Notes under the pieces: model-generated
What the model was told of the DNA's origin: nothing
The model's input: the letters and a program-made list of their open reading frames with translations, nothing else
The model's database searches: none
Made by a program: the position numbers and the translations under genes
Source of the DNA: Halorubrum sp. CSM-61
GTDB lineage: Archaea; Halobacteriota; Halobacteria; Halobacteriales; Haloferacaceae
Length of the DNA: 64,000 nt
Direction of reading: 5' to 3'
Assembly: GCF_003781945.1 (NCBI RefSeq)
Contig: NZ_RJJW01000007.1
Location: 124,001 to 188,000, forward strand
In this document: one piece after another, positions 12,298-64,000 of the stretch
How positions within the stretch are numbered: position 1 is the first letter of the stretch
How the letters are laid out: each line of letters opens with the position of its first letter

Positions 12298-13692
12298 GTT
12301 GCTGTTTGAATTCAAGCACTATGAGTCGTGTGATGACTTTCCTCTCAAATAAGAGGCTGACTCTCTCGTTCATAGTGATCCTCCTCATTACCTATCTACT
12401 AGAACTTCTCACCATCGCCCAGTTGGGAATAGAGACGTTCGAGTTCTGGTTTCTCTTTACTCCAGGATTCGATCCCACACCGGCATGGATACTCTCCCTG
12501 TTTGCTCACGGAACAGTCCGACACCTGGGCGTGAATATCGTGGGAATTCTGGTGTACGGACTGGTGCTGGAGCGATATGTGGCGCGGAAGACGTATCTTG
12601 GTGTCTACGTCTCAACTGGTCTCCTCGCAGGACTCATCCACACGAACCTGACTGACAACATCGGAGCTGGGGCGAGTGGTGCGATTATGGGAATCGTCGG
12701 CTTCTATGCCATCGTGTATCTGGCGTTGTACCGGCCGAATGGTTGGAACGATCCATTGGAGAATGTCCGCTATGTCCTTGCCATCCTCGGGCCATTCGTA
12801 ATTGGTGCACAGTACGTTGTTGACATCTACGTCAACAATGGTGGATATGCCCATGTCGCCGGTGGAATCATAGGAATTCTTCTGGGACTCGTCTACGCGA
12901 GATCTCAGGTGGAGAGTTCTTTCTCCAGAACAATCGAGGCAGCCAGAGAGTCTCCGTTCCCAACGGCGCTCTTGGTACTGATCTTGGCCGAGACAGCAGT
13001 GATAGTCTACCTCCTGATAGTGACTCCAGAGAACCCAGCAACCTCAACGGCAGTCCAGGCTGGAGCCACAATCATCCTGGTTCTCATCACGATCTGGTAC
13101 GCAGACCACACGAGACGGAGCGCCGACCTCTTCCGACGTGAACTGGAATTGGAGACCCAACGGAACCATGCCGATACCCTCCAGATTCGTACTGACAAGT
13201 GGTTAGAAGAATTCCCATCCGTTCGTGAGACTGATGTCCCGCTATTCGTAGATAGAGATTCGATGCACGCAGTTCCGGAGAGTCTCCGAGGGGATCCGTA
13301 CTTCGAAGATCTCACAACGAATCACGCCTCATACCTCCAAGATTCTGTAGACCATATAGACAACCTCTACTCTGAATTTCTGGATATTCGCGATGATTTC
13401 ATAGATACCCTAAGTATCGACGAGTGTCCTGATATGAGGCAGGTCGACGTTCTTGAGGAGAACTACGCCAAATGGCTGTTCGAGCGAGTGCTACTGATGG
13501 AGCGGACGGGCAAGGACAAAGAGGATCTCAAATCAGCAGTCGGTGACGCCTTCGAAACCAGCGCAGAGGAGGAAGACGACCACTTCCGATTGTTTGGAGA
13601 TACGGACCAATTTCGGAGGAAACCGATTATGCTCTATCACTACAAGCGGTCCTTTGCGAACAGCCGAAAGGAACCGTACCATTCGTCTTTAG

Positions 13693-14997
13693 CTAAGACT
13701 CACACCTCGGTTGCGTAGCGGTAGCGAGCGTCTCTTGCAGTATCGGTCGTTGCTGGTGGATCTTCTGTGCATCTTCGATCAGCCGCTCCAACAGCGGCGG
13801 TGGCGAGTAGCCGAGATATTGGCCGAGTTCGTGGAGGATGAGCTGGGCGTGCGACCGGAAGGTCGCCGCCCAGCGCTCCGGCGGGAACACGATGTCATCG
13901 TCGGCCTGCTCGGTGACCAGATCCAACAGCTCACGACTCACCAGCAGCGACAGCAATGCAGCGTACAACAGAATTTTCACGACATCCGGATCGCTCGTGT
14001 CGAACTCATCCAGTTCGTACTGCGTCTTCAGCTCACGAAACAGGGTTTCTACCTCCCATCGACACCGATACAGCGTTGCGAGATCCGCCGGGAGAAACTC
14101 CTCTCGCGGTAGATTCGTGATGTACAGATGGTAGTCGTCGGCGTCCTCGTCGCGGACGCCGACGACGCGGAACCGCTTCGTATCCAGCGAGCGCGTTCCT
14201 TCGTACTGGCCTCGCTTGAACTCCGCTTCGACCTCTACGTCGATGTACTGTCGGTGCAGATCGTCAACGACATCGTGGATCTGTTCGCCCACCAAGGGCC
14301 TGGCGCGCCCGCGCCAGGCCCGCAACTCCTTCGTTATCACCGGATTCGCGTTCTGCTTCAGCCGACTCACGAAATAACCGTCGTTCTCGTCGATCAACGC
14401 GAAGCGGCGATACTTGAAGTACGCCAGATCGAGCAAAACAAACCGTCCTTGCAGCCATGAACCCGTCTTGAACAAGGTGCTGTCGTGCGTTTTCTCGTCG
14501 GTCACGTCGAACCGCTCAATCGTCTCGTCGGTGGCGTTGTGGAGCAGGTGGAGCTTCGCTCCAGCCTGCTCCTCGTGATGGGCTTTGAACTCCTCAGAGA
14601 GAAACTCATGCAACCGCAACACGGTTCCATCAGCGATCATCACATCCCTGAACCGGTCGATATCAGCGTCAACAGCCCCGGGAACAGCGACCTCGTCGAG
14701 CACGGCCTCGACGAGGTCGCGGAGATACTCCGCGAGTATCGGCGTCAACCGCTGATAGAAACCGCCAGGTGAGATCGTTTCATCAGCCGTCGAGTTGTAG
14801 CTACGTCTGAAGCCAGCGAGTGTTCGGCTCTCGCCTGCGGCGAAGCCGAACACGAGCGCCCACACGAGGACTGGAACCTGTAGCTTGCCCTCTCGCTCGA
14901 CCACGCCGAGTTCCTCGGCGTGCTCTTCGAGGAACTCGGAGGGAAACAGTGTAGTGAGCCGACGCATGATTCTCGATGAGGAGGCTTCTGTGTGCAC
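13693..14997 (-). CDS. IS4-family transposase
   Basis: 434 aa (405 if the later Met, MRRLTTLFPSEF, is used). The DDE catalytic core is visible: MIADGTVLRLHEF (first Asp), LLDLAYFKYRRF (second Asp), and YRCRWEVETLFRELKTQY with the Y-(2)-R-(3)-E-(6)-K pattern (YREK) of IS4 transposases. It resembles the ISH8 group of haloarchaea. It appears intact and active. The TAG stop lies in the flanking TTAGCTAA rather than in the element, so the last codon depends on the target. Confidence 0.9.
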   Translation of the reverse strand: MHTEASSSRIMRRLTTLFPSEFLEEHAEELGVVEREGKLQVPVLVWALVFGFAAGESRTLAGFRRSYNSTADETISPGGFYQRLTPILAEYLRDLVEAVLDEVAVPGAVDADIDRFRDVMIADGTVLRLHEFLSEEFKAHHEEQAGAKLHLLHNATDETIERFDVTDEKTHDSTLFKTGSWLQGRFVLLDLAYFKYRRFALIDENDGYFVSRLKQNANPVITKELRAWRGRARPLVGEQIHDVVDDLHRQYIDVEVEAEFKRGQYEGTRSLDTKRFRVVGVRDEDADDYHLYITNLPREEFLPADLATLYRCRWEVETLFRELKTQYELDEFDTSDPDVVKILLYAALLSLLVSRELLDLVTEQADDDIVFPPERWAATFRSHAQLILHELGQYLGYSPPPLLERLIEDAQKIHQQRPILQETLATATQPRCES

Positions 14998-16006: not shown

Positions 16007-16606
16007 ATGCACCAGCTTATCCGCGTACTTGTTCCCGGTACCACTCAAGACGACGCCCTCGCCCACGCTCACAGCGCCCTTGACAAACTCGTCGGTGTCG
16101 GCGTCGATACTGCCAGTGTCTACGACTACTACGGGACGTTCGATCAAGCGGACTCGCGTTACAAGTCGCACGTCGTGAACGTCATCAATGACGGCAGCTC
16201 TGAGACTGTCGACGAGACAACGGTCGCTCCAACGTTCCCACTCGACAGCGAGGAGGGACAAGCACTCCTCGATGACGCGCTCAAGGAACAAACGGAGGAG
16301 TTCCGAGATACGTTGTCGAGATTCCAGTCGAAAGTCAACGATCTTTCTGTTGAGGACGTGATGAACAACGTCGACGGAGTACGATTCCACCTAGGACAGC
16401 TCGCCGAATGTCGAGGACCTTCGGTGTACATCTACAACGAATATGGAGGCGGTCTCATATCACCGAAGGCCGTCGACGAATACATCGATCGCCTACAGAA
16501 CGCCTCGTCGGGTACTGCCGGCGTCGACGGTGACGCCGCAGCGGCCACAAAAGAAGATGAGCAGACACACCGGGGATGGCTCGTCCCCGCCGACGTCCAT
16601 TTCTAG
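16007..16606 (+). CDS. Unknown soluble plasmid protein
   Basis: 199 aa. The start MHQLIRVLVPGTTQDDALAH suggests a beta-alpha ferredoxin-like opening. The middle is helical (QALLDDALKEQTEEFRDTLS) and the end acidic and Ala-rich. The ATG lies just after a purine-rich gtggag. It is 6 bases from the next gene (16613), so the two probably share a transcript. The function is not recognised. Confidence 0.6.
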   Translation: MHQLIRVLVPGTTQDDALAHAHSALDKLVGVGVDTASVYDYYGTFDQADSRYKSHVVNVINDGSSETVDETTVAPTFPLDSEEGQALLDDALKEQTEEFRDTLSRFQSKVNDLSVEDVMNNVDGVRFHLGQLAECRGPSVYIYNEYGGGLISPKAVDEYIDRLQNASSGTAGVDGDAAAATKEDEQTHRGWLVPADVHF

Positions 16607-16612
16607 CGCTTT

Positions 16613-16918
16613 ATGGCGAGTGAATCACAGCTCTTCGAGACGCTTAACGACCCGAATCGGATAGCCTTCCGGGTGGAGCTCCCTGACGGGAAATCAACAG
16701 CGTTTGCGACGACTGGACGGACCGACGTTGCAGTCGGCGAGCGATACTGGAATTCCTACGACGGCGAACTATACCGCGTCACGATCGTCGACGACACGAC
16801 GGTTGAAGCAGTCCTCGAATTCGGCTGTGGGGATATCCTCCGATCAGTCTCCTTCGACTGTGAGTGGTTTACTCCAGACGGTCACTCCCTCCACCACATC
16901 GCTCCGGAGACCGAGTAA
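16613..16918 (+). CDS. Small unknown beta-rich protein
   Basis: 101 aa, mostly beta-strand by pattern (IAFRVELPDGKSTAFATTG; ELYRVTIVDDTTVEAVLEF). One short CGDILRSVSFDC segment holds two Cys. It lies between 16007 and the Mom-like gene with gaps of 6 and 27 bases, so probably in one operon. The family is not recognised. Confidence 0.55.
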   Translation: MASESQLFETLNDPNRIAFRVELPDGKSTAFATTGRTDVAVGERYWNSYDGELYRVTIVDDTTVEAVLEFGCGDILRSVSFDCEWFTPDGHSLHHIAPETE

Positions 16919-16945
16919 CCGCCATCACTCTGTTGACTCACCAGT

Positions 16946-17872
16946 ATGTCAGCACTTGCTTTCCCCGTTCGCGACGGTTCGGAACCAGCACCACTTGACC
17001 ATTCCTCCCTGACCAGCAACAAACCAACCGAGCTCTTATCGACGATCCGCACCGGCGACCACATCTTCGAGCGAACCGTCATCGACTCTCGAAATCGGTT
17101 CCCTATTCCCGAGGTGAAGGCTGTTTACCGACGTCGCGTCATCACTAACGTTGAGCTCACTCGTGAAGGATGTTCATTGGCCGTTAACTTCCAGGAACGG
17201 CTCCCTGCCGATGAGTCGTTGGTCGAAGTGCTCCATTCGAGTGATCCCGAGTGGCGTACATACCCGCCAGCGGGAATGCCGGATTTCCCACGACTGGACG
17301 TCGAACCTGGTGAAAAACCGGACTGGAGGGTCTCCCATTGGGAACCCGAGCGTGTCACGCCACCGCCTCTCGAGGACGTCACCGACCTCACAGTCCACCG
17401 CGTTTGTGGACGAGGGAGTCGGCAACTCGTCAATCACCTTCTTATCGGTGGTCCGGACGGCCGCATCGACCACCGCCTCGGCGGTGTCGCGAAATGGAAG
17501 GCCGGATTCATCGCTACCCAGGATGGGCATCCGTACTCAGTGGCGGTGCTCGCGCAGCCGTACACATACAGTTACGACGGGGCTCGTGAAGAGCTGTACG
17601 TTACACGGCTTGCGAATCACCCGAATCGCCCACCGAATACGTCGAGTTGGATGCTTGCGCGTCTTCGGGACTGGGTACGTGAGAATACCGACCGAAAGCG
17701 GCTCGTCGCGATCGCCGGCGTCGACGACAACACTGGAGTCTGCTACCGAGCCGCTGGGTTCGAACTCGATCGGATCAAACCCGTCTCGAGTACTGATTGG
17801 GAGAACCGTGAAGGACGTACTGTGCCCCGTCGCGACGAGTGGACGAAACGAAGGTACGTCTCATCAGTATAA
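16946..17872 (+). CDS. Putative Mom-like / GNAT acyltransferase
   Basis: 308 aa. The C-terminal 150 residues have a GNAT-type layout: FIATQDGHPYSVAVLAQP, then ELYVTRLANHPNRPPNTSSW (about 215-234), WMLARLRDWVRE, and RLVAIAGVDDNTGVCYRAAG followed by FELD. The combination of 'RLA...P.N..SW..AR....', an 'A..D...G..Y.AAGFE' motif and a downstream Arg/Trp-rich tail resembles the phage Mu Mom DNA-modification acyltransferase and its relatives. The N-terminal half is unrecognised. If correct, it would add a carbamoylmethyl-type group to adenines. A generic GNAT with another target is the main alternative. It ends 11 bases from the convergent orc1 gene. Confidence 0.5.
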   Translation: MSALAFPVRDGSEPAPLDHSSLTSNKPTELLSTIRTGDHIFERTVIDSRNRFPIPEVKAVYRRRVITNVELTREGCSLAVNFQERLPADESLVEVLHSSDPEWRTYPPAGMPDFPRLDVEPGEKPDWRVSHWEPERVTPPPLEDVTDLTVHRVCGRGSRQLVNHLLIGGPDGRIDHRLGGVAKWKAGFIATQDGHPYSVAVLAQPYTYSYDGAREELYVTRLANHPNRPPNTSSWMLARLRDWVRENTDRKRLVAIAGVDDNTGVCYRAAGFELDRIKPVSSTDWENREGRTVPRRDEWTKRRYVSSV

Positions 17873-52333: not shown

Positions 52334-55300
52334 ATGCCGACGCTCCCAGCCTTCACTCGAGCTTGGCTCTCGCCGGCCCCGCTCACCGATGACCATACCC
52401 AGTCGCCGCCCGATACAAGGACAGATCGCACTTCGCATCCGTCGCGGTCGGTAGAGCCGACCCAGACGTCTCGGTCCCCTCGCTCAGGCCGTCCGAGGAA
52501 CCGACGTCCCCTCTACGGTGTTCTGTTGACCCTCAGCGTCATCGGTATCCTACTCACGGCGGCCACTGGCCCAGCTATCGCAGCACACCCCGCTGACTCC
52601 ACGAGTACCACAGAGAGCCAGAACCTCTCTTCTACTTCGCTGCAATCCACGAATGTAACCTCGCCGTGCCAAACTCAGAACAATAACTCGTACGGATGGA
52701 CGGAACACTACGCGTGTATCCAAGTTCATCTCTACCAGCAGGATCAGGATCTCTCGATCTTCCCAGAAGACGCAACACAGGCCCGGGAAGCTGCGAAGAA
52801 CGGAGAGTCGGCTGAAACCATCGAGGATTGGCTCTTCCGATACTATCGTACGGAGCAATACCCCGACTGGTGGATGCCGTCAGAGGAACAGATTGAGCAA
52901 ACCCCGAAGCTCAAGCTCTATCCACTCACGAACGAAACAGTTCACGAGTACGAGACCGCTCAATCTCTCTCCGTCTTTCCGGAGGATGCTCGAGCCGTCC
53001 GGTTTGCGGCAACTCATAACGCGACGGTAAACGAACTCCGGATGGCCCTCCTCAACTACTACGCCGTTCAGTGGGATCAGGGCTGGCGGCCGAACTCAGA
53101 ATCATCCACGACTACCACGACCAACGCAACCGCAGGAGGGGGCTCAAACGGAGGGGAATCGGAGAGTACCGCCGAGTCGAGTTCAAGTAGCGCTTGGTAT
53201 GCTCCGTATCTTAGTGGGATCGTCGACGCCGCAAATCAATTTCGTGGATGGATGAGTGGAGTGCAGGAGTTCATCGGTGGGCTCCTCATTTGGAGCTTCA
53301 AGAATCCCATTATCGCAGGGATTGTCATCTTCACGTCTCTCGTCGTGTTCCTCCTTCTCGGAGTCGCCCGTCGGATGCGGCGGACGTGGACGGCGATGCT
53401 TGCGGTCTGGTCTCGATTCGTCCGCGCGATCGTCTGGGTGGCCGATACTATTGGCATCGGAACGCTCCGGCGAACACAAATCAAATTCTTCCGATTCCGT
53501 CGCACTCTCAACGTCTATGCTCACGCGCTCGCAGCGATAACAGGCTGGGCAATCCGCGAAGGGTTCCACCGTGTCGACCGTACGATCACAGACTACGTCA
53601 CCGACGAAGACTCCAGCACGTGGTCGTATATCGCACCACCCGCTCACGCAAGCGCCAGTAGCACAGCTGATGCCGCCGTCTCGGAGACAGCGTACGCGAA
53701 GAGCAAGCGCCTCCTCGATCCTCTCGATGCACCAGCCGTGTACGAACTCGATGAGGATGAACCACCGCGACCAGGAGACGACCTCTGGTACCGCATTACG
53801 GCCTCCGATCAGCCGGCCTCACCGGAGACAATCACCAAACAGATCGAAGGTCTACCCAATCTCACTGACGGGCTAGAAGTCATCATCCGATCGGCACCTC
53901 ACGACCCCGAGATCGGAGGAGAAGAAAGCGAGCTTCAAACTACTGAAGGCGATGGCAACCGACTCGCAATCGAGGTTCTAATCCACTTCATCGAGGACGG
54001 CCAGACGAGCACGCTCGACCGGACGAAACACAACTGGGTACGACAAGCCTTCGGTGGTCCCGACTACGACGTCACACCCGTCTCGACGACGCTCCAGCGA
54101 CTCCTCCGCGCCCGGCCGTACCGGCGGTGCAAGCATCTTCTCGGGAATGATGCGACCCCATCAGCGACGTTCCCTTGGAGTAACGCGCAATCATCGGACG
54201 CCGCGACAGACGGTGGGCGGACTCTCGACGAGGACACGCCCACACCGAGCGAACGTGCAGCTGCAGCCGAGGCGATTCCTCAACGGTACTTCCGAGAGCA
54301 TCTTGAGGATCAGTTCACTGCGGTTTGCCCGGAAGCGCCCGTGAGCTATCCACTCGGTTCCCGAGGAACCCGCCGTTGGGACTTCCTCCAGCGACTCAAC
54401 GTCTTCGACGAAACCGCTGCCGAAGAAGCCCCTCCGATGGAAGCCGCTCTCGATGCACTCCTCGAGACCGACGAACCTGCACTACTCCGTGCCCGGATTA
54501 CATCCGCAGGCGACCTCAGCGACATCATTCGGCAGAAACTCGACGTCATCGAGGGTGAGGAAAGCACCCAGTTCGACAAACGAACGAATCGCCGTGGGCG
54601 TAGCCGTGCGACACCAAGCTCGGGAGAGAATACCACCGAGGAAGACCGGGCTGCTGCTCGAGAACGAGAGAGTAGTCGGGTCCGTGGGGAAGTCGCGAGC
54701 GCGGAAGGGACACGGAACGAAGAACTCCAGAACAAGGGTGTGACTCGGAGTTTCAAAGTCACGATGGATGTCTTCACCCAACCCACACCCTTCTTGAACG
54801 ACGCCCTCGAAGAGACTGCTGGAGGGTCAGTTGAACCCTCCTCAGAGGCCCACCCCGTCCCCTCCCCCCTCTTCCATTCAGACGAGGACTCCACCTCTGC
54901 CTCGACAAATACGGCGAGTGACGGGGGCGTCTTCACCGAAGAACAGCCCGATCTCAACGAGATAGACAGTACTGCCGATCTATCTGGTTCCGACACCGAC
55001 ATCGAGACCTTAGCGAGTCGAGGTGACACTCTCCGAGTGACTCCCGAGACGCTCGCTAAAGCCGCAGCCAGCCAGCGGACTACGGCTCGCGACGACGCCT
55101 GGCGGCTCGCAAAAACGTGGGCGACTGCTGCTGACGGCGAGTTCAACAAGCTCACTGAACCACCAGAGAACAGCCGCCTCGCAAAGTGGGCACGGCAGTT
55201 TGGGTGGCGGAGACATACGCTCGGACAGCTCCGTGACTCGTACCGTTTTCACCGCGCTCAGGAGTATGCTGGTAGGGCACCCACATTCGGCCTACACTAC

Positions 55301-58300
55301 TCTCTCCGTCGCCGCTGGCCGATCGTCCTCGCCGCCGCCGACGAACTCCCTTCGTTCACAGCACTCCCGAGTACCAGCGCTGTCTCGGACGACCTCGCAG
55401 CCCATATGGAACGCCAACTCTCCCACACAGCCCCACTCTCTGAACTCTCTCCTGCCGAGGACAACGAAATCATCGGTACGGACATTGACGGGGCCACGCT
55501 CGGCTATGCGTTCGATCGTCTCCACGCTAGCGACCTCACTCGTCCCGTCAAACATCGCACGGACTATATGGACCGGTCGATCCTCCACCAAGGGCTCCCC
55601 GGCTCCGGGAAGTCTGTCGACCAAGCTCACGAGATCGTCGAGCGTCGGAAGGCCACGAACGGCCCCATTATCATCTACGCCGGCCCCGGCGCAAACGTCG
55701 GTGAACTTGCTGTGCGCGGTCTCTTGGATGAATTCGGCGGAGACTGGGTGCGCGAGCACGTCCACTGGTTCGATATGCCTGAGGTCCTCCCCGGACTAAC
55801 GGTCTTCGACACACGACCCGCCCAACAGGCTGACGACGCCCACGGCAACCCCCAGGCTGCAGAGAGCGTCGCGACCGACGACACCCCTCCCCAGCGCCCT
55901 GATATCGCTTCCAAGGACACCAGCTGGGAGACACACGGCTCACAGGTTATGCAGACTGTCCGGAAGATAGCCGAACTTCTGATGGGTGAGAGCGACTTCC
56001 AGAACGCCCGCGTGTCTCGTGATGTCCTTCGGGCCCTCGGGACGGCTGGCTTTTCACCACACACATATCCGACAGGCGTCGATGGCACGCCTGCGTACAA
56101 GCGGAAAGGCGGTGATACCAGCAATAACACGCTCCCAACTGCCGACGACCTCGTGAGCGGCGGAAATCGCTCCAACGATGAAAACGAGGACGATTCAAGA
56201 TCTCGACAGCCCACCGTGATGCCGTTCCGCTGGGGGTACGACGCCAGCCCGAACGTCTATCCCCTCTGGCAGCTCCAAGAGCAGACCCAGCAGGTCACCG
56301 AACTGACGAGGTTGATGGATCCGGATATTCCGATCAATCCTAAGGATTTACTGCCTGATCCGGGCTCGCACGCAGTCAAGCGGAATATGGAGACGCCGTT
56401 CAACAATCAACAGCACACCGCCCAGCAGATCCTCGGCGGTGTCACCAACCGTTTGAACGCGCTTACGACGGACGCCCGTCTCGCGCCCCTCTTCAATAAC
56501 ACGACCCGGCGGTTCTCCTTTGCCGACTTCCTTTCTGGCGATCGCCAGAACGACGTCCTCATTTTCGACGTTGAGGATCTCGATCCGGACGCCCAGCGTG
56601 ACTTCGTCCTTACACACGAACTCCTAATGCAGTACGAACTCGAACTCTACAAGTCCTTCCTCAAAGAGGAGGCAACTGCGGACGATTACTACGTCAGCGT
56701 CTTCATCGACGAGGCCGGCCGCCTCGTCGAGCCGGATGACCTTGCAAAGATGATCGCCGTCGCCCGCAACCACTCTGTCTCCCTCTCACTTGCCGTCCAG
56801 ACGCCCGACCAGCTCTTCGACGCCGACACCGACAACAGTGTTGGCGACGACCCGACGTACGCCGAGATCATCGGTAATATTCAGACGACCGTCGTGCGTG
56901 CCGGTGAAATCACGCGTCAGCAGGCAAAGGCGCTTTGTCCGGCCGACCTCGAGGTCGAGGACTTCATGGATCACGTCCGCGATCTCCCCGTCGACCACCG
57001 GCTCGTCCAGTATCCGACACCTTCCGAAGGAACACGGTCTCAGACCATCGAAATCGCCCGCATTCCCCTTCCGAACTGGCATCAGGATGCCGAGGAAGCC
57101 CCCGAAGGATACGATTCTCGCGAAGATTTCGAGGAGGCCTTCCGAGAGGTTCGCGCCGATGTCATCGACCAGACGAACGAAGAGTACGGAATCCCCGACG
57201 ACGAGTCAGAATCGGCTGTCCGTAACCGGGCGATTCTCAACATCCCCGAACTCGCCCACCATCTCACAATAGACGACCCACTCCTCCCGGTTGTCCTCGC
57301 GTGGGCGACTTGGATAGTCGCTCGTGACCCACCCAACGGGCCCGGTGAAGAAACTCTGCACAGCGTCTCCAACACCGACAGCAAGCTCCCTGACCTCGAA
57401 GACCCAGTTGAACCAAATAATGATTCGACGATAGAGGACTCCCCGGCTGAGGAAGTCAGCGCGATAGATGTCCTATCGGACGATGCAGGACCCGATGAAT
57501 ACACAGCTGAATCGGTATCTACCAGTCGCGAGAACGATTCTCCATCCACTACGAGCGAGCAGCCAGATACGCTGTTCGACTCAGGTGGGTGGGCTCGCGA
57601 CCAGTGGGATGAGGCGAAGACCGAGCTCACCCAATCCAATACCGAGCGCCAGACTCCTCCCTCGGCCGCTGAGAGCTCAGGCCCTGCGTCCAGTCTTCAT
57701 CACGTCCTGAAGGGCAGTATGACGACTGACGAGTGGGAGGAGCTTACCGACCTCCTCGAGAAGGGGAAGTCGCTTTCCCCAGAAGAATGGGCGATTCACA
57801 CCGACCTCCCGACGTACCGGAAAGATGAGGAATCCATCCAAGCCCGTGCGCTCAACAGCCGTGTCGCGACTCTCCTCAACCAAGGTATCCTCACCGAGGA
57901 TGAAGTGGCCCGGATTCAGGAACTCATCGATCTCGCACGGGATACCGGGAACTGGCCACCGACTGCGGTTCGTGATCGTCTCGACACGGAGTCCGAAACT
58001 GCGCCAGCAGACAAATCGTTTCCCGAACAGCAAAGCGCCACTGTGGATAACGAGAGTGTGTCCGCGGCGATCGAACGCCGCCGGACCAGTGAGAGAAATT
58101 CTGTTGGGATCGACCCGTTCGATGGGGAGGAACCACGACCCGGAACGTACCGCTGGGTGCGCCTTGACGAGATGTACCGCCGGCTTCGCCTCGAAGTCGA
58201 GAAAGTCCTCGCCACAGAGGGCCTCAACGAGGGAGAACGTAATCGTCGCCGCGATGCCCTCCCCTCGCTCAAGGCGTGCGCCGATGAGATCGAGGCGTTA

Positions 58301-60370
58301 GGCACCATTATGACCCATCGGGGCGTCGCTGGCGACACTCCCATCCCGGAAACAGACGGTATCTTCGAGATTGAACTCGCGAAGCACCGTGACGACGTCC
58401 CCGGCGACGAGGGCTACGCCATTCGGTTGACTCCCGAGGGTGCTCGTCTCCTTCTCGAAAACGTGTTTTCGACTGGCTGGGTCGCAACCGCTGGGACCGA
58501 TACTCACGATACCGGCCTTCGAGACGCTATGACGGCACTCGAAGACGCAGTCCCCACCCGAGTCAGTGGCCGGATCATCGACCAAGACACCGGGGACATC
58601 CCGGACGCCGTCCTCACAGTCTTCGCCAGCGAGCCTACGGAGTGCTTCGCTGACGACATCATCTCATGCACAGTCGAAGAGGAGACCGACCCACGTCGAC
58701 ACCCCACGAAGAAACTCCGTAACCTCAAGAAGGCGCTTAACACTACTACGAAGAGTGGCGAATGTCGCCTCCCCATCTTCGTCGCCGAAACGCCGTGGGA
58801 CGAAGACGCAGGGGCCCCCGACCTTGGACCTGCCACCGCATTATCGAACATCCTCCGTGATCCGATGAACACTCAGTGGTCGGGTCGCCGGTTCTACTCG
58901 CAATCGAACACGCCAATCGAATTCGACGGCGGCGCCCGCGACGGCGGTGTCACCGCTGTCGTCCCCCGATCGGACACAGAGAGCGCCGGCACGTCGATCT
59001 GGATTCGCGACCCGGACCCCGACTCGGACGACTGCCTCCTCGTCGCCCCGACCGCCGACAACATCGGCCATCCCGATGACGAGGATATACACCTTCGTAT
59101 CGCTCCCGGTGACTTCCAGAACCTCACTCCCTCGAGCATCCCGTACCGGGCGACATGTCCCCCGAGAAGTGCAAACGAATCAGCTCGCTATATCGTCGAG
59201 ACTCCGGGTAGCGAACAGACGTACAAGTACGAGACGGAAGAGCGGTTCCGTGAGGATTGGGTCCGCGTCAACAAGCCATTCGTACCCGACATCGAATTCC
59301 GGCACCAGGACTACCCAGAAACCGCATATGCCACCCTCGTCCGATACGAGCCGCCCCGCGCCGGCGACGACGCACAGGCACGTATCGCCTGGTTCGATCA
59401 TCGGACCTCGGGCGACGAGGAGATGGGGACGCTTCGGCCCGTCGAGGACCTCATCGAAGCGATTCAGACGGGCGAACTCAAGCCGGCGTCCGCTGACCCC
59501 GGAACGGCACCCGAATGGACTCACGAAGACGAAGTCTCGACCGACGAAGCACAAGACTCTGAAGTGGATGAGGAAGACACTGGCGCGTCATCATCGACGG
59601 ACGAGGCACCAGACGAATCCACTCCCGAGCCATCCGACAACAAGGACGAAGAGCTTGACGGCGATGATACTGACACAACGCAGTCCGAGGAGGGAGAGAC
59701 AGACGATACTTCCGAACCACTCCAGGATGAGGGGAAAGCAGCTACCGCCGCGTTCATCGCGGCTTACCTCCGTCCTGCACCGAACAACGTCGTGGACGTG
59801 GATATCGCCTTCGACCGTTGTCAGGAATTCGCGAGCACGCACAACCTCGTCTCACCAGAATCAGAGGACGAGTTCGCAGAAACGATCGATTCCCTCTTCG
59901 ATGCGTTCGACACGGACACCGGAATCGACGGAGACCTCTTCGACATCGATCGCGACGTCATCAGTGCCCTCGAAGAGGGATTCAATATTGTCTCAACGTC
60001 AGGTGGAAACGAAGACAGCACTCGAACCGTTATATTGGGTGTGAAGATGGTTGATCCCACAGAAGAAGACACGTCGTTCTTAACGGAAGCAGCGCCCGAG
60101 CAGTCGGCAGGTGGTGCGGCGTTCATTGCGAACCAGCTCACGTCCGACCCTGACGGAGCGCTTCCGAGTTCGGAAACCTATGACGAATACGTCGACACCG
60201 TCACCGACTGGGGATTCGAGTCTCTCCCTGACCGAGGTTCGAGTGTGACGTTCAAACGGTTCCTCCAAATCTGGGGTGCGGTGCTGTTCGGCGTCTCGGT
60301 CGAACGGAAACGCCGGCGGATCGACGGGTCGCCTACGCGGTGCTATACGCACCTCGAGTGGCGCGAGTAG
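52334..60370 (+). CDS. virD4: Giant VirD4/TraD-like coupling ATPase
   Basis: 2,678 aa. A signal-like helix (about 57-80) precedes an exported region of 230 residues with N-glycosylation sites and repeated 'LSIFPEDA...AAKNGES' and 'LSVFPEDARAVRFAATHNAT' units. A second helix is at about 315-340. A large cytoplasmic part has Walker A HQGLPGSGKSVDQAHE (about 1085-1100) and Walker B YYVSVFIDEAGRLVEP (about 1452-1467), the VirD4/TraD coupling-protein signature. Beyond about residue 1650 follow acidic linkers, several unrecognised domains and a C-terminal winged-helix-like end (GVSVERKRRRIDGSPTR). Usual VirD4 proteins have 500-800 residues. It should bring the DNA substrate to the channel. The gene is last in the locus, beside the foldback region. 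Confidence 0.85.
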   Translation: MPTLPAFTRAWLSPAPLTDDHTQSPPDTRTDRTSHPSRSVEPTQTSRSPRSGRPRNRRPLYGVLLTLSVIGILLTAATGPAIAAHPADSTSTTESQNLSSTSLQSTNVTSPCQTQNNNSYGWTEHYACIQVHLYQQDQDLSIFPEDATQAREAAKNGESAETIEDWLFRYYRTEQYPDWWMPSEEQIEQTPKLKLYPLTNETVHEYETAQSLSVFPEDARAVRFAATHNATVNELRMALLNYYAVQWDQGWRPNSESSTTTTTNATAGGGSNGGESESTAESSSSSAWYAPYLSGIVDAANQFRGWMSGVQEFIGGLLIWSFKNPIIAGIVIFTSLVVFLLLGVARRMRRTWTAMLAVWSRFVRAIVWVADTIGIGTLRRTQIKFFRFRRTLNVYAHALAAITGWAIREGFHRVDRTITDYVTDEDSSTWSYIAPPAHASASSTADAAVSETAYAKSKRLLDPLDAPAVYELDEDEPPRPGDDLWYRITASDQPASPETITKQIEGLPNLTDGLEVIIRSAPHDPEIGGEESELQTTEGDGNRLAIEVLIHFIEDGQTSTLDRTKHNWVRQAFGGPDYDVTPVSTTLQRLLRARPYRRCKHLLGNDATPSATFPWSNAQSSDAATDGGRTLDEDTPTPSERAAAAEAIPQRYFREHLEDQFTAVCPEAPVSYPLGSRGTRRWDFLQRLNVFDETAAEEAPPMEAALDALLETDEPALLRARITSAGDLSDIIRQKLDVIEGEESTQFDKRTNRRGRSRATPSSGENTTEEDRAAARERESSRVRGEVASAEGTRNEELQNKGVTRSFKVTMDVFTQPTPFLNDALEETAGGSVEPSSEAHPVPSPLFHSDEDSTSASTNTASDGGVFTEEQPDLNEIDSTADLSGSDTDIETLASRGDTLRVTPETLAKAAASQRTTARDDAWRLAKTWATAADGEFNKLTEPPENSRLAKWARQFGWRRHTLGQLRDSYRFHRAQEYAGRAPTFGLHYSLRRRWPIVLAAADELPSFTALPSTSAVSDDLAAHMERQLSHTAPLSELSPAEDNEIIGTDIDGATLGYAFDRLHASDLTRPVKHRTDYMDRSILHQGLPGSGKSVDQAHEIVERRKATNGPIIIYAGPGANVGELAVRGLLDEFGGDWVREHVHWFDMPEVLPGLTVFDTRPAQQADDAHGNPQAAESVATDDTPPQRPDIASKDTSWETHGSQVMQTVRKIAELLMGESDFQNARVSRDVLRALGTAGFSPHTYPTGVDGTPAYKRKGGDTSNNTLPTADDLVSGGNRSNDENEDDSRSRQPTVMPFRWGYDASPNVYPLWQLQEQTQQVTELTRLMDPDIPINPKDLLPDPGSHAVKRNMETPFNNQQHTAQQILGGVTNRLNALTTDARLAPLFNNTTRRFSFADFLSGDRQNDVLIFDVEDLDPDAQRDFVLTHELLMQYELELYKSFLKEEATADDYYVSVFIDEAGRLVEPDDLAKMIAVARNHSVSLSLAVQTPDQLFDADTDNSVGDDPTYAEIIGNIQTTVVRAGEITRQQAKALCPADLEVEDFMDHVRDLPVDHRLVQYPTPSEGTRSQTIEIARIPLPNWHQDAEEAPEGYDSREDFEEAFREVRADVIDQTNEEYGIPDDESESAVRNRAILNIPELAHHLTIDDPLLPVVLAWATWIVARDPPNGPGEETLHSVSNTDSKLPDLEDPVEPNNDSTIEDSPAEEVSAIDVLSDDAGPDEYTAESVSTSRENDSPSTTSEQPDTLFDSGGWARDQWDEAKTELTQSNTERQTPPSAAESSGPASSLHHVLKGSMTTDEWEELTDLLEKGKSLSPEEWAIHTDLPTYRKDEESIQARALNSRVATLLNQGILTEDEVARIQELIDLARDTGNWPPTAVRDRLDTESETAPADKSFPEQQSATVDNESVSAAIERRRTSERNSVGIDPFDGEEPRPGTYRWVRLDEMYRRLRLEVEKVLATEGLNEGERNRRRDALPSLKACADEIEALGTIMTHRGVAGDTPIPETDGIFEIELAKHRDDVPGDEGYAIRLTPEGARLLLENVFSTGWVATAGTDTHDTGLRDAMTALEDAVPTRVSGRIIDQDTGDIPDAVLTVFASEPTECFADDIISCTVEEETDPRRHPTKKLRNLKKALNTTTKSGECRLPIFVAETPWDEDAGAPDLGPATALSNILRDPMNTQWSGRRFYSQSNTPIEFDGGARDGGVTAVVPRSDTESAGTSIWIRDPDPDSDDCLLVAPTADNIGHPDDEDIHLRIAPGDFQNLTPSSIPYRATCPPRSANESARYIVETPGSEQTYKYETEERFREDWVRVNKPFVPDIEFRHQDYPETAYATLVRYEPPRAGDDAQARIAWFDHRTSGDEEMGTLRPVEDLIEAIQTGELKPASADPGTAPEWTHEDEVSTDEAQDSEVDEEDTGASSSTDEAPDESTPEPSDNKDEELDGDDTDTTQSEEGETDDTSEPLQDEGKAATAAFIAAYLRPAPNNVVDVDIAFDRCQEFASTHNLVSPESEDEFAETIDSLFDAFDTDTGIDGDLFDIDRDVISALEEGFNIVSTSGGNEDSTRTVILGVKMVDPTEEDTSFLTEAAPEQSAGGAAFIANQLTSDPDGALPSSETYDEYVDTVTDWGFESLPDRGSSVTFKRFLQIWGAVLFGVSVERKRRRIDGSPTRCYTHLEWRE

Positions 60371-60905: not shown

Positions 60906-61661
60906 GTATAGAGGGGGCAGATTCGTGTGAAAGGGGGGTACCGATGTGTTCCGGCGAGCGGGTACCCTGGCAGCGGGTACAGGCTGGCCCCCTGGGCGGT
61001 CGTCGAAGACGAGTGTCTGATGCGTATCAGATTGTGGAGAAGTCGGTAGCCGAAGCCGAGGTGAATAGCCGTTGTGTGTCGCGTGGAGAGCGCGGCCTGT
61101 CGTAACGTAGGAGCTGGTGGGTGGCGTCGAGGTGTAGCATCGAGCGCGCGTGGGGAACATACGGCTTTGCGTACGAGCGAGTGGGAGTGGATGGTCGTGT
61201 CGCGGTGGTGCCTACACTAGGGTCTGCTGGCTATCGCACGGGGACGTCAGGGTGCGTATCTCAAACAGGCTAGGGACGTGCTGCGTATCGCGGCTCTCGC
61301 CTCGTGGTTCGTTCTCAGCGTGAGGATTGGGCACGGTGACGTCGACTTCGCGAGGGGCTGTCGGCTGTACTCGAGGCGGGGGGTCGCGCCGTCGTGAGAC
61401 GCCGTGGGCTGTCGATAGAGCATAGTGGTGTGGCCTCGGCGGCCGAGTGGTCGCTGTCGCCACCGCGTTCCGGCGTGACGGCCGTCGGCTCGCTGCTCTG
61501 GCGCGTATGGATGCCCAATCGGTGTGTCTCGAGAAGGGTGCCGCGCGCGTCGGGGTCGCGCGCGCTTTGGATCGAGACCGCCGCGACGAGCAGAGCTCGT
61601 CGGACGGTCTCCGTGGGTGAATTAGGACCGCGTCGTAGCGGCGGCTGATTTCCGGGACCTG
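60906..61661. other. G/T-rich gene-free stretch
   Basis: About 750 bp whose plus strand is conspicuously rich in G and T. Open frames here are Arg/Ser-rich and unlike haloarchaeal protein. Two local hairpins are visible: cgcgcgcgtcggggtcgcgcgcgc near 61545 and GAGACCG...CGGTCTC with an inner GACGAGC/GCTCGTC stem at 61574-61611. It may be a non-coding RNA gene or leader of the following array. Confidence 0.4.
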
Positions 61662-62564
61662 CTCCACACGCTCTGGCCGCTGACGGCGGGCCACGATTTC
61701 GGGGAATCGCGTAGCTTTCCCCGAAATCGGCCGCCTCACCGGCCAGTCCGTGGGAGCCGATGTCGTCCACTCACCCGCCGAAGTCCGCGGATTGCGCGGT
61801 CACGAGACACCGACGCGAACCGGACCCTACCCGCGAGCGCAACCCGCTCGCGGGTCCCTTCCAGTCCGCGACGGCGCCTCGTAACACCGCTCATCGAGCG
61901 GATTCGGCGGCCTCGGGAGACATCGGGTCGTGCTACGACCAGGTTTCCTCACTCGGTCGCCCCCCTTGCGCTGGCGCGTGCAGTAGCGCGCGCCGCGCAC
62001 TCACCGGGAGGGGCCGCCGGAGCCACCAGCGATTTCCGCGGACCCTACCCGCCCCCACCGGGGCGGGTCCCTTCCACGGAAATCGGGCGCCTCTGTCGGC
62101 CTCCCGGCGAGTCGGGGCGAAGCCGGGCACGGGGCCTGCCGAGCCGAAGGCACGGGAGATCGCGTCGCTCACTCCGTTCGCCTGAGTCATACGTCGCCAG
62201 CACGCTGAACCGGACCGGGTCACGATTTCGCGCGGATACCTTCCCGCGCTCGCAAGCTCGCGCGGGCCCCTTCCACACGAAATCGACCGGTTCAGCGCGC
62301 GGCGACGCACGACTCAGCCCGGCCATATGCGGCCGATTCATCTGCGTTCACCGACCCGCACCCGGACCTCGATTCCGGCAGACACTACCCGCCTTCGGCG
62401 GGTCCCTTCTCCCGGAATCGGCCGTGCGCGGCTGGTTCACGTTGTTCATCGGCCGCATCTGCCGGGTTCGCGACTCCCGTACCTCGGCGGGCAGGGCCCC
62501 GCACCGGGCTTCGTTCTGGCGGTACGGGCCACCCGCCAGAAGCCGCCGAGCAAAAATTAATTTC

Positions 62565-62898
62565 TTTCCTCTTAAGCGTCCACGGGACGGGCGGGGGAAG
62601 CCGCCGTGCCGTTCCTGACCTGGCACGATCTCAGCGGACCCTACCCGCGCTCACACGTTCGCGCGGGTCCCTTCCACTGACATCGGCCAGCTCACGACGG
62701 CAGCCGGCTCCCCTGCCGGTACCCGACGGCGCTCGCGCTATCACACACGCGCGAGCGCCGTCGTTCCGACAAGCTCGAGACCCTGACGCGGGCCGCGATT
62801 CCGCGGAGATACTTCCCGCGCTTCGCGCGGGCCCCTTCTCCACGGAATCGGCCGCCTCAGTACCTCTCGCCGTGTCGGAAGGAACGCTTAAGAGGAAA
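62565..62898. repeat. Outer inverted repeat TTTCCTCTTAAGCG enclosing two foldbacks
   Basis: tttcctcttaagcgtcc (62565-62581) and ggaacgcttaagaggaaa (62881-62898) are inverted copies about 300 bp apart, bracketing foldbacks six and seven. The AT-rich left flank (caaaaattaatttc) gives the left copy a promoter-like look. They could be facing promoters or the outer arms of a compound structure. Confidence 0.55.
62725..62762. repeat. Perfect 14-bp hairpin
   Basis: GACGGCGCTCGCGC (62725-62738) and GCGCGAGCGCCGTC (62749-62762) pair perfectly around a 10-base loop (tatcacacac). It lies exactly between foldbacks six and seven and has no apex motif. A stable GC hairpin without a T run is not a typical archaeal terminator. 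Confidence 0.7.
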
Positions 62899-63436
62899 CC
62901 ATCCCCCCCACTTGTCGGATATGAACTGCACGTCTTGGGGAGACCACTTGCCGGATGCCTCTGGCGCGTGCATTCCCCTGATCGCGGCCGCCTTCGGCAG
63001 ACACTACCCGCCTTCGGCGGGTCCCTTCTCCCGAACGCGCCCGCGTCAGGGGTGCACCCGCCGGACGCCTTCCAGCTTGTGGCGCTGGGCGCGGGCCTCG
63101 ATTCCGGCAGACACTACCCGCGGCGCATCCGGTCGGTGCGCCGCGGGTCCCTTCTCCCGAAATCGGCCGCGCCAGCGTCCAAGACGCACAGTCCCTTCCA
63201 ACTGTTGAGGGGGATTGAAATCATAGAGTCAGGTAGCCCGTGACAGGGCGTCGGGCCGTCGGCAGGCGGCGCCGGGCGGTCGGCGTGCGGAACGTCGGCC
63301 GCTCAGGCGCGCCCCGCGGTGGGTTTGTTCGCCCCTCCGCGCGGTGAAGGGTGTACGAATACACCCGTCGGTCGGCGGTCAGAAGGCGGGCGCGGTGGAG
63401 CGCGCCCAACAGGGGATCACTCCCCGTGAAACAGCA

Positions 63437-64000
63437 ATGTCTAGTTTCAACTCAGGGCAAAAAAGCCCATCGGCGGTTGGACAGCCTGACAAGTACGACG
63501 AACTCGAGATGGATCTGCTCTACAGCAGTCCCCATCTGGAGAACGGCGATAACGTGGTCGGTGTGGACATCGACAAACGCCCCCCGACCCCGAACGACGA
63601 ACCGGTCGAGGACAGCCGGGGGCAGGAACTCGTTCCTGGAAACTATGCGCGAGAACGCTCGGCGCGGATGGACGCGCAGTACCGGGCGGCTGCCTCACAG
63701 CACGAAACGTCGGACGAGGACGACCAAGAAGACGAGACGGGGCTCCCCCACAGGCGCGAGATGACCGGCCGCGCAGGTGGCACCTACGCGGATGTTCAGG
63801 CAGTGATGCACGGCCAGCAGTTGGGCGACGTCGTTGAGGGCGATGTCGGCGAGCTGGTGCGCGGCGTCTCCACTGGGGTCTACTGGGAGCAGGCACTCGC
63901 GGAAATGGACATCCCCGAGCCTCGACGCGACCTGCAAGCGCCGTTCGCGGAGGTGTCCCCGGAGCACTACACGCTAGCGACTGAAGAGCGAATGCGCGGC
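63437..64000 (+). CDS. Acidic protein of unknown function (runs off the window)
   Basis: An ATG at 63437 opens a frame that stays open to the edge (188 codons). It reads MSSFNSGQKSPSAVGQPDKY, then LLYSSPHLENGDNVVGVDID and later REMTGRAGGTYADVQAVMHG and VSTGVYWEQALAEMDIPEP. Asp/Glu-rich, soluble, haloarchaeal codon use. No family is recognised. It is the first gene after the foldback array (245 bp of GC-rich DNA lies between), so the array could be its regulatory region. Confidence 0.7.
   Translation, partial: MSSFNSGQKSPSAVGQPDKYDELEMDLLYSSPHLENGDNVVGVDIDKRPPTPNDEPVEDSRGQELVPGNYARERSARMDAQYRAAASQHETSDEDDQEDETGLPHRREMTGRAGGTYADVQAVMHGQQLGDVVEGDVGELVRGVSTGVYWEQALAEMDIPEPRRDLQAPFAEVSPEHYTLATEERMRG

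Follow-up and report, generated by a model that had tools for sequence, protein, structure and literature searches.

Several large non-coding RNAs, among them GOLLD, ROOL and OLE, are described as having extensive, covarying secondary structure and poorly understood functions; GOLLD (800+ nt) and ROOL are located on phages and prophages (PMC12286853). A bacterial megaplasmid, that of Lactobacillus salivarius, is reported to encode a long non-coding RNA of 520 nt with proven expression (PMC5643018). Structured single strands are also described in the leading regions of plasmids, where each of the Frpo/ssi single-strand promoters is a strand-specific imperfect hairpin upstream of SSB genes (PMC11541004).

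We analysed 64,000 nt of haloarchaeal DNA (hereafter the window) contained in a 229-kb contig that has only haloarchaeal relatives in the plasmid collection. The window carries an array of nine tandem foldbacks, in a single orientation and at a single genomic locus, which we read, with a probability of about 0.5, as a new, ornate structured non-coding RNA of about 1.6 kb on the minus strand, with putative transcription and promoter. Similar to GOLLD, ROOL and OLE as described, the array is large, non-coding and extensively covarying in structure; it differs from them in being haloarchaeal, in its length of about twice the 800+ nt of GOLLD and in its nine tandem arms with one repeated tip (PMC12286853). 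GOLLD and ROOL are often, if not strictly, near tRNA genes, whereas no tRNA gene was found within the 64-kb window. Like the L. salivarius RNA, the array would be a long non-coding RNA located on a large plasmid, a likeness by description that implies no relationship; it differs in its greater length and in being archaeal (PMC5643018). The first-pass annotation knew of no described haloarchaeal family of such a form, and this holds: no Rfam family reached its gathering score in the 64-kb window and permissive hits were sub-threshold, the best on the array being that of 6C RNA to a perfect hairpin (E 0.049, 33.8 bits, cut-off 47). GOLLD, ROOL and OLE were absent from permissive scans of the array and of the loci L029, L058 and L092, and literature searches on haloarchaeal large noncoding RNA, plasmids, GOLLD/ROOL in archaea and structured-RNA covariation returned no paper that we recognised as being on the array. 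We place the array nearest in kind to the ornate RNAs, as a member of no named family, differing from them in host domain, length, modular build and neighbours.

Nine tandem foldbacks had been proposed at 61662-63191, and our covariance model recovers nine units in order; the array extends slightly past this interval, and the whole folded element runs on the minus strand from about 61590 to about 63250. Eight of the nine foldbacks have a common tip, GGACCCTACCC..stem..GGGTCCCTTCC on the plus strand, or close variants of it. Searched with up to one mismatch, GCGGGYCCCTTCY occurs eight times in the window (0.38 expected), each time in the array, on the plus strand and without mismatch. On the minus strand, the model places unit 2 at 61800-61884 (67 bits), unit 3 at 62018-62097 (78.2 bits), unit 4, with a variant tip, at 62212-62297 (60.3 bits), unit 5 at 62358-62432 (75.9 bits), unit 6 at 62614-62697 (74.9 bits), unit 7, again with a variant tip, at 62784-62862 (58.8 bits), unit 8 at 62977-63051 (73.6 bits) and unit 9 at 63087-63177 (68.7 bits), matches that hold by construction since the model was built from 31 sequences that include these eight canonical units. 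The divergent unit 1 (61682-61741, minus strand), which forms the left-hand start of the array, has no canonical tip and matches weakly (26.2 bits, E 0.0028; stem 61694-61706/61717-61729).

The innermost part of a typical unit is a variable stem-loop beginning ACCCGC/GCGGGT. Outside it follow a mismatch loop of 4x4 (CMCT/CCCT), a helix of 3 bp (RGA/TCY), a 1x1 mismatch and, last, a long arm specific to the copy. The blocks of the copy 2 arm that were said to recur in the opposite arm are indeed present, and eight arms contain, close to the tip, a purine-rich internal loop, typically AGGG facing AGKG. In the outer stem of unit 5 (62339-62441, minus strand; strands 62339-62352 and 62434-62441), GTGAAC faces GTGAAC; by eye, in the five-lineage alignment, this looks like a tandem G.A motif whose flanks covary. 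Integron attC arrays also consist of imperfect foldbacks, bulged and variable at the tip, which are recognised in single-stranded form. The array resembles them in its tandem imperfect foldbacks but has no gene-sized spacing between units, its canonical tips being 126-265 bases apart and too close for ordinary cassettes, and the order of its units is fixed in five lineages. An extra hairpin with a 15-bp perfect stem lies at 62724-62763, and a domain around it and units 6 and 7 (62565-62898) is closed by a 15-bp perfect long-range helix pairing 62565-62579 with 62884-62898, both on the minus strand. Because of the extra hairpins and this helix, the array is better described as one branched structure than as nine separate foldbacks, a refinement of the first-pass annotation, whose observation is otherwise confirmed.

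The arms had been noted to diverge in pairs, and from this it had been argued that folding is selected. We aligned 31 of 36 unit sequences, leaving out Salinib_5017 and four near-duplicates (two more units, Hrufus 5792 and Hsalinum 7149, are absent from the unit set). Among the 31 units, 86.7% of cells are paired (73.3 shuffled), 12 of 18 pairs have changed on both sides (8.1 shuffled), and 67 paired cells are double-changed compared with 21.5±3.9 in shuffled alignments, a count reached in 0 of 500 shuffles; the covariation score is 0.290 (0.100 shuffled), and slid structures score far lower. Units were gathered by a pattern on the right-hand tip strand, so that inner pairs are partly fixed by selection, and the count was therefore repeated on the outer helix alone, which is untouched by the search pattern. 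There, 75.6% of cells are paired (53.1 shuffled), all nine pairs have changed on both sides (6.9), 54 cells are double-changed (17.4±3.1) and the score is 0.450 (0.137). The first pair of the RGA/TCY helix is G-C in 20 units and A-T in 11, with zero mismatches.

Compensatory change was also counted over the whole array, with pairs defined on the window sequence alone and the alignment made by sequence only. The pair counts include noise, as the five-lineage alignment misplaces the first ~240 columns in Hlito and parts of units 4 and 6 in Hlito and G174: from the array of the window to that of Hlito, 109 pairs are double-changed, 76 of them to Watson-Crick pairs, compared with 15-21 double changes, 7-10 of them Watson-Crick, among the 150-159 pseudo-pairs of six slid controls; the corresponding counts are 107 and 69 for Hpelag and 147 and 100 for G174. 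Slid pseudo-pairs in these three comparisons are Watson-Crick in 18-53% of double changes, and in twelve comparisons between more diverged lineages true pairs are so in 62-73%. Compensatory change thus exceeds both shuffled and slid controls, indicating that the fold is kept while the letters change, which supports the selection argued for earlier.

Matching arms could also be kept by mutational upkeep, that is, by template switching between the arms of a palindrome, without selection on folding. In the tip of unit 5 (window ~62390-62400; L056 ~3290), the inner loop reads CTTCGG in the window and CCGAAG in Natribaculum breve, an inversion such as template switching would give, and the small number of G-U pairs in the array also agrees with this process. 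Template switching would, however, tend to erase mismatches, whereas in 31 of 31 units the tip loop has an unchanged CT on its left and CCCT on its right (the right-hand one being required by the collecting pattern, the left-hand one not) and the flanking pairs covary; the conserved unpaired boxes described below argue against it as well. We regard this explanation as very improbable.

For the 1660-nt stretch, the fold energy is -998.6 kcal/mol on the plus strand and -1136.6 kcal/mol on the minus strand, compared with -763±10 and -831±11 kcal/mol, respectively, in dinucleotide shuffles (n=24), an excess of ~23 s.d. and ~28 s.d. Excess stability over dinucleotide shuffles (more than 20 s.d.) and compensatory change among homologues, two of the properties on which the first-pass annotation had staked its proposal, are both found. 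The folded strand is the minus strand. Across the five full lineages, minus beats plus by 134-181 kcal/mol, of which composition accounts for 68-100, and in five of five the minus-strand excess over shuffles is 4.0 to 8.0 s.d. The minus-plus difference is -138 for the array of the window (-68±11 in 24 shuffles) and, with 10 shuffles each, -146 for Nbreve (-81±8), -181 for Hlito (-100±11), -138 for Hpelag (-73±10) and -134.5 for G174 (-94±10); a repeat strand run on the window's array gave 8.7 s.d. As a positive control, 16S rRNA from the same genome favours its sense strand by 6.1 s.d. (-77 vs -39±6). The short SRP and RNase P RNAs show the correct direction weakly, with 0.6 and 1.8 s.d., and for RNase P RNA the raw energy of the antisense is even lower than that of the sense strand. 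Three distant loci also have hairpins before the OB-fold gene (see below); among them the minus preference is clear in G282 only (3.0 s.d.), absent in G138 (0.7 s.d.) and replaced by an opposite lean in G001 (1.3 s.d.). The consensus fold of the five lineages has energies of -769 on minus and -650 on plus, which carry no composition control.

This preference bears on a function as double-stranded DNA, in which a cruciform or repeat array would serve plasmid replication, partition or topology and be read by a tip-binding protein. The single array of this genome, fixed in order and orientation, and the adjoining replication-type genes (RPA-like, PCNA, helicase) would suit such a function, but it predicts no strand preference beyond composition, and a preference is seen in five of five full lineages; we hold it to be improbable.

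Purines account for 63-75% of the positions left unpaired on the minus strand (16S sense, 67%). G-U pairs make up 4.9-7.9% of minus-strand pairs; the genome's own 16S, SRP and RNase P RNAs have 9-11% and shuffled arrays 11.5-13%, and this scarcity fits DNA better than RNA. A further strand test, comparing G-T with A-C mismatches, was first taken as strong proof for the minus strand and then set aside: among window pairs that became single mismatches in Natribaculum breve, 23 are A-C and 5 G-T on the plus strand, but a slid-partner control shows the same bias without pairing (minus strand, six slides summed, G-T 56 and A-C 24; true pairs 27 and 8). In the twelve remaining lineage comparisons G-T/A-C comes to 0.9-1.7, and the 31 core units lean modestly in the same direction (A-C 23, 49.0 expected from independent columns; G-T 5, 23.2 expected).

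Among 391 genomes of the class, the tip pattern is present in five and the unit covariance model matches ten, with 5-8 units in G000, G174, G275, G283 and G137 and one unit in G001, G138, G273, G281 and G282. In the family set, six of 170 genomes match, each with 5-8 units, four of them already among the 391-genome matches. Segments of 3 kb on plasmids of Natronomonas marina and Halorarius halobius (NZ_CP101155.1 and NZ_CP101163.1) are each 98.9% identical to the window, and this near identity points to recent transfer of the plasmid type between two haloarchaeal genera. Natribaculum breve and longum are about 89% identical to the window, and further carriers are Halobellus rufus and clavatus, Halohasta litorea, Halorubrum laminariae, and Halosimplex pelagicum (chromosome) and salinum. 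Five full lineages (that of the window, Nbreve, Hlito, Hpelag and G174), hosted on haloarchaeal plasmids or integrated elements, have the same ordered array at 60-93% mutual identity; the set of copies is fixed in its order and passed on as a whole. Three further lineages (G138/G281, G282 and G001) have one or two units, with other hairpins too in G138, G282 and G001; the matches in Salinibaculum (L047) and G273 (L093), weak or partial, are not counted as lineages. In a DNA similarity search of plasmids with the G001 region, the matches listed (20 of 51) cover the flanking gene only and gave no array.

The common tip and orientation of the units might suggest a cluster of a mobile repeat of the MITE or REP-like kind. 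The first-pass annotation had already argued that the units are not simple duplicates of a mobile element, and we agree: all matches in the genome fall in one cluster, with no dispersed copies elsewhere, the order is the same in five lineages and the arms differ between units. A mobile repeat is the least probable reading that we weighed, and we give it almost no weight.

The array had no match in phages by DNA similarity, nor in viral contigs by the strict pattern. Exact matches to the tip pattern outside haloarchaea (15 of 26 loci) have no enclosing arms by eye and score at most 24.8 bits in the covariance-model scoring, which covered L031, L034, L035, L036 and L042; we attribute them to chance or unrelated repeats. 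Ten lie in two Acidimicrobiia MAGs and one each in Helicobacter, an alphaproteobacterium, Phycisphaeraceae, Treponema and Fibrobacter. In the Acidimicrobiia MAGs the exact tip CTACCCGC..GCGGGTCCCTTCY stands in ten contig stretches (L031, L034, L035, L038, L040-L044 and L048) with C-rich flanks and without the haloarchaeal arms, perhaps as an unrelated dispersed repeat. Local folding profiles of the DNA upstream of 13 more distant OB-fold genes (for G249, the first 5.2 kb) showed no comparable folded stretch in 12, which means that the OB-fold family as a whole is not marked by the array. Upstream of the remaining one (L130, G169), ~1.3 kb folds strongly without the tip motif and is possibly a remote version.

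The array occupies a non-coding gap with a VirD4/TraG-like gene on the left and an OB-fold gene on the right, both on the strand opposite to the folded one. The left-hand gene (52334-60370, plus strand, 2678 aa) has weak domain matches (E 0.0005 and 0.0002) and stands after a gene for a VirB4-like ATPase, whose match (E 9.7e-43) falls short of the cut-off. In nine of 11 genomes tested, the array contig also carries a gene of the VirB4 kind (E at most 1e-8), with weak matches in G138, G174 and G281; it lies ~35 kb from the array on the chromosome of G391 and on another contig in G392, and none was found in G282. The right-hand gene, a divergent RPA/SSB-like OB-fold gene (63437-64000, plus strand, continuing past the window; the ATG start is our choice), adjoins the array in eight of eight lineages. 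Its product matches the NCBIfam replication factor A family (E 2.7e-10, below its cut-off) and, by profile, archaeal SSB and related solved structures, and had no match in phages. Farther right follow a second RPA-like gene (above the cut-off), PCNA, a helicase and a TFB gene. In L054, two similar genes (12984-14543 and 16515-17744) lie downstream of the array. We presume them to resemble phage primase-polymerases; the first had no primase-polymerase match in Pfam or NCBIfam and the second none in NCBIfam.

At the right end of the array, the box CTATGATTT (63218-63226, minus strand) is the only CTATGATYT in the window. CTATGATYT (ATATGATTT in G174) is found there on the minus strand in seven of eight lineages and is missing in place in G138/G281, the CTATGAT site of G138 being on the far side of the unit and scored absent. 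A short hairpin, GCCC-TGTCAC-GGGC (63236-63249, minus strand), stands 9 nt 5' of the box; such a hairpin 8-9 nt before the box is predicted in five of seven lineages (that of the window, Hlito, Hpelag, G282 and G001), and in Nbreve and G174 a different pairing is predicted, although similar short arms can be drawn by eye. GGAAGGG (63193-63199, minus strand) is the putative 5' end of the RNA; in all five full lineages GGAAG keeps a nearly constant distance of 26-28 nt from the box start. On the minus strand, TATGATTT/ATTTCAAT is the sole A/T-rich stretch from 63460 to ~62570; a crude test places A/T-rich 8-mers (7 of 8) near 63214-63225 and 62551-62567 and nowhere else, with zero in the nine units. 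By eye, the CTATGAT box matches poorly the TATA/BRE-like sequence upstream of the SRP RNA here. Further minus-strand boxes are conserved across 30-40% divergence: GTGAGGAAACCTGGTCGTAGCACGACCCGATGT (61920-61952), identical in four lineages and partly kept in G174 in the five-lineage alignment; GTCCCGGAAATCAGCCG (61642-61658), near the 3' end of the folded strand, with one change in G174; and ACAAGYTGGAAG (63069-63080), in four of five lineages. Towards the left, conservation with Natribaculum drops beyond ~61570 and has ended by ~61200. On that side of the array (window 61526-61578), a hairpin GTCTCGA..TCGAGAC in a stretch 82-94% identical to Natribaculum may be part of the element's 3' end. 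Minus-strand folding, the fixed ordered set and the terminal conserved box beside a divergent OB-fold gene all go beyond what the first-pass annotation had claimed.

The right end and its neighbours also bear on a role of the array as single-stranded DNA, a structure for conjugative or other strand transfer in which the minus strand would be the transferred strand, the hairpins an origin-proximal structure, ssi/sso-like priming sites or single-strand promoters, and the hairpin with CTATGAT a nick or recognition site. A hairpin, 8-9 nt and a conserved box form the layout of a relaxase origin, which the hairpin, spacer and box of the array resemble. A single-strand promoter folds from the template strand of its gene, and for the OB-fold gene that strand is the minus strand, as observed. 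VirB4/VirD4-like and RPA/SSB-like OB-fold genes flank the array, and G-U pairs are scarce. OB-fold proteins are described as participating in the relaxosome of a Gram-positive element, which offers a precedent (PMC12614216). Like the Frpo/ssi promoters, the array lies directly upstream of an SSB-type gene, on a conjugative-type element, with strand-specific hairpins; it differs from them, as described, in having nine hairpins over 1.6 kb in place of a single promoter structure, in its arms, where the crude test gave no A/T-rich promoter boxes, and in its archaeal transcription machinery (PMC11541004). Against this role, no relaxase domain was found among 14 proteins of the element scanned, four of four related plasmids are typed as non-mobilizable without relaxase (a typing that may miss archaeal enzymes), the nine units are without A/T-rich 8-mers, and with a minus-strand nick at CTATGAT the OB-fold gene would enter last, not first. 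A literature search on oriT in haloarchaea found no described haloarchaeal transfer origin. We consider single-stranded DNA the main rival, a possible but rather unlikely reading, and prefer RNA to it, a weighting left unchanged by the strand runs on Nbreve and the short RNA controls and by the outer-helix count.

Pointing to RNA are the purine-rich unpaired positions, the conserved single-stranded boxes, the apparent tandem G.A motif of unit 5 (seen by eye) and the box-to-GGAAG spacing, which resembles that from TATA to start. As RNA, the array would be transcribed towards the left, in the direction opposite to the RPA-like gene, with a putative promoter including the CTATGAT box, and would fold as a chain of nine hairpin arms. 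Eight arms with the same kind of purine-rich loop would present eight copies of one docking motif, and the conserved single-stranded boxes and long-range helices would order the whole molecule. By analogy with ornate phage and plasmid RNAs, its role may be that of a scaffold or particle for the plasmid. Somewhat more tentatively than the RNA reading itself, we propose an undescribed class of archaeal structured RNA of very large size, which conjugative-type plasmids of haloarchaea would carry and spread and whose nine-arm chain displays eight copies of a purine-rich docking motif and is possibly an RNA particle or a scaffold for the RPA-like protein.

Were the array single-stranded DNA, it would mark where haloarchaeal conjugative plasmids start or establish transfer. 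If it is RNA, as we prefer, it would rank with the largest known structured non-coding RNAs other than ribosomal RNA, in archaea, where we know of no ornate RNA of such kind, and its diverged lineages would already supply the homologues needed for structure work.
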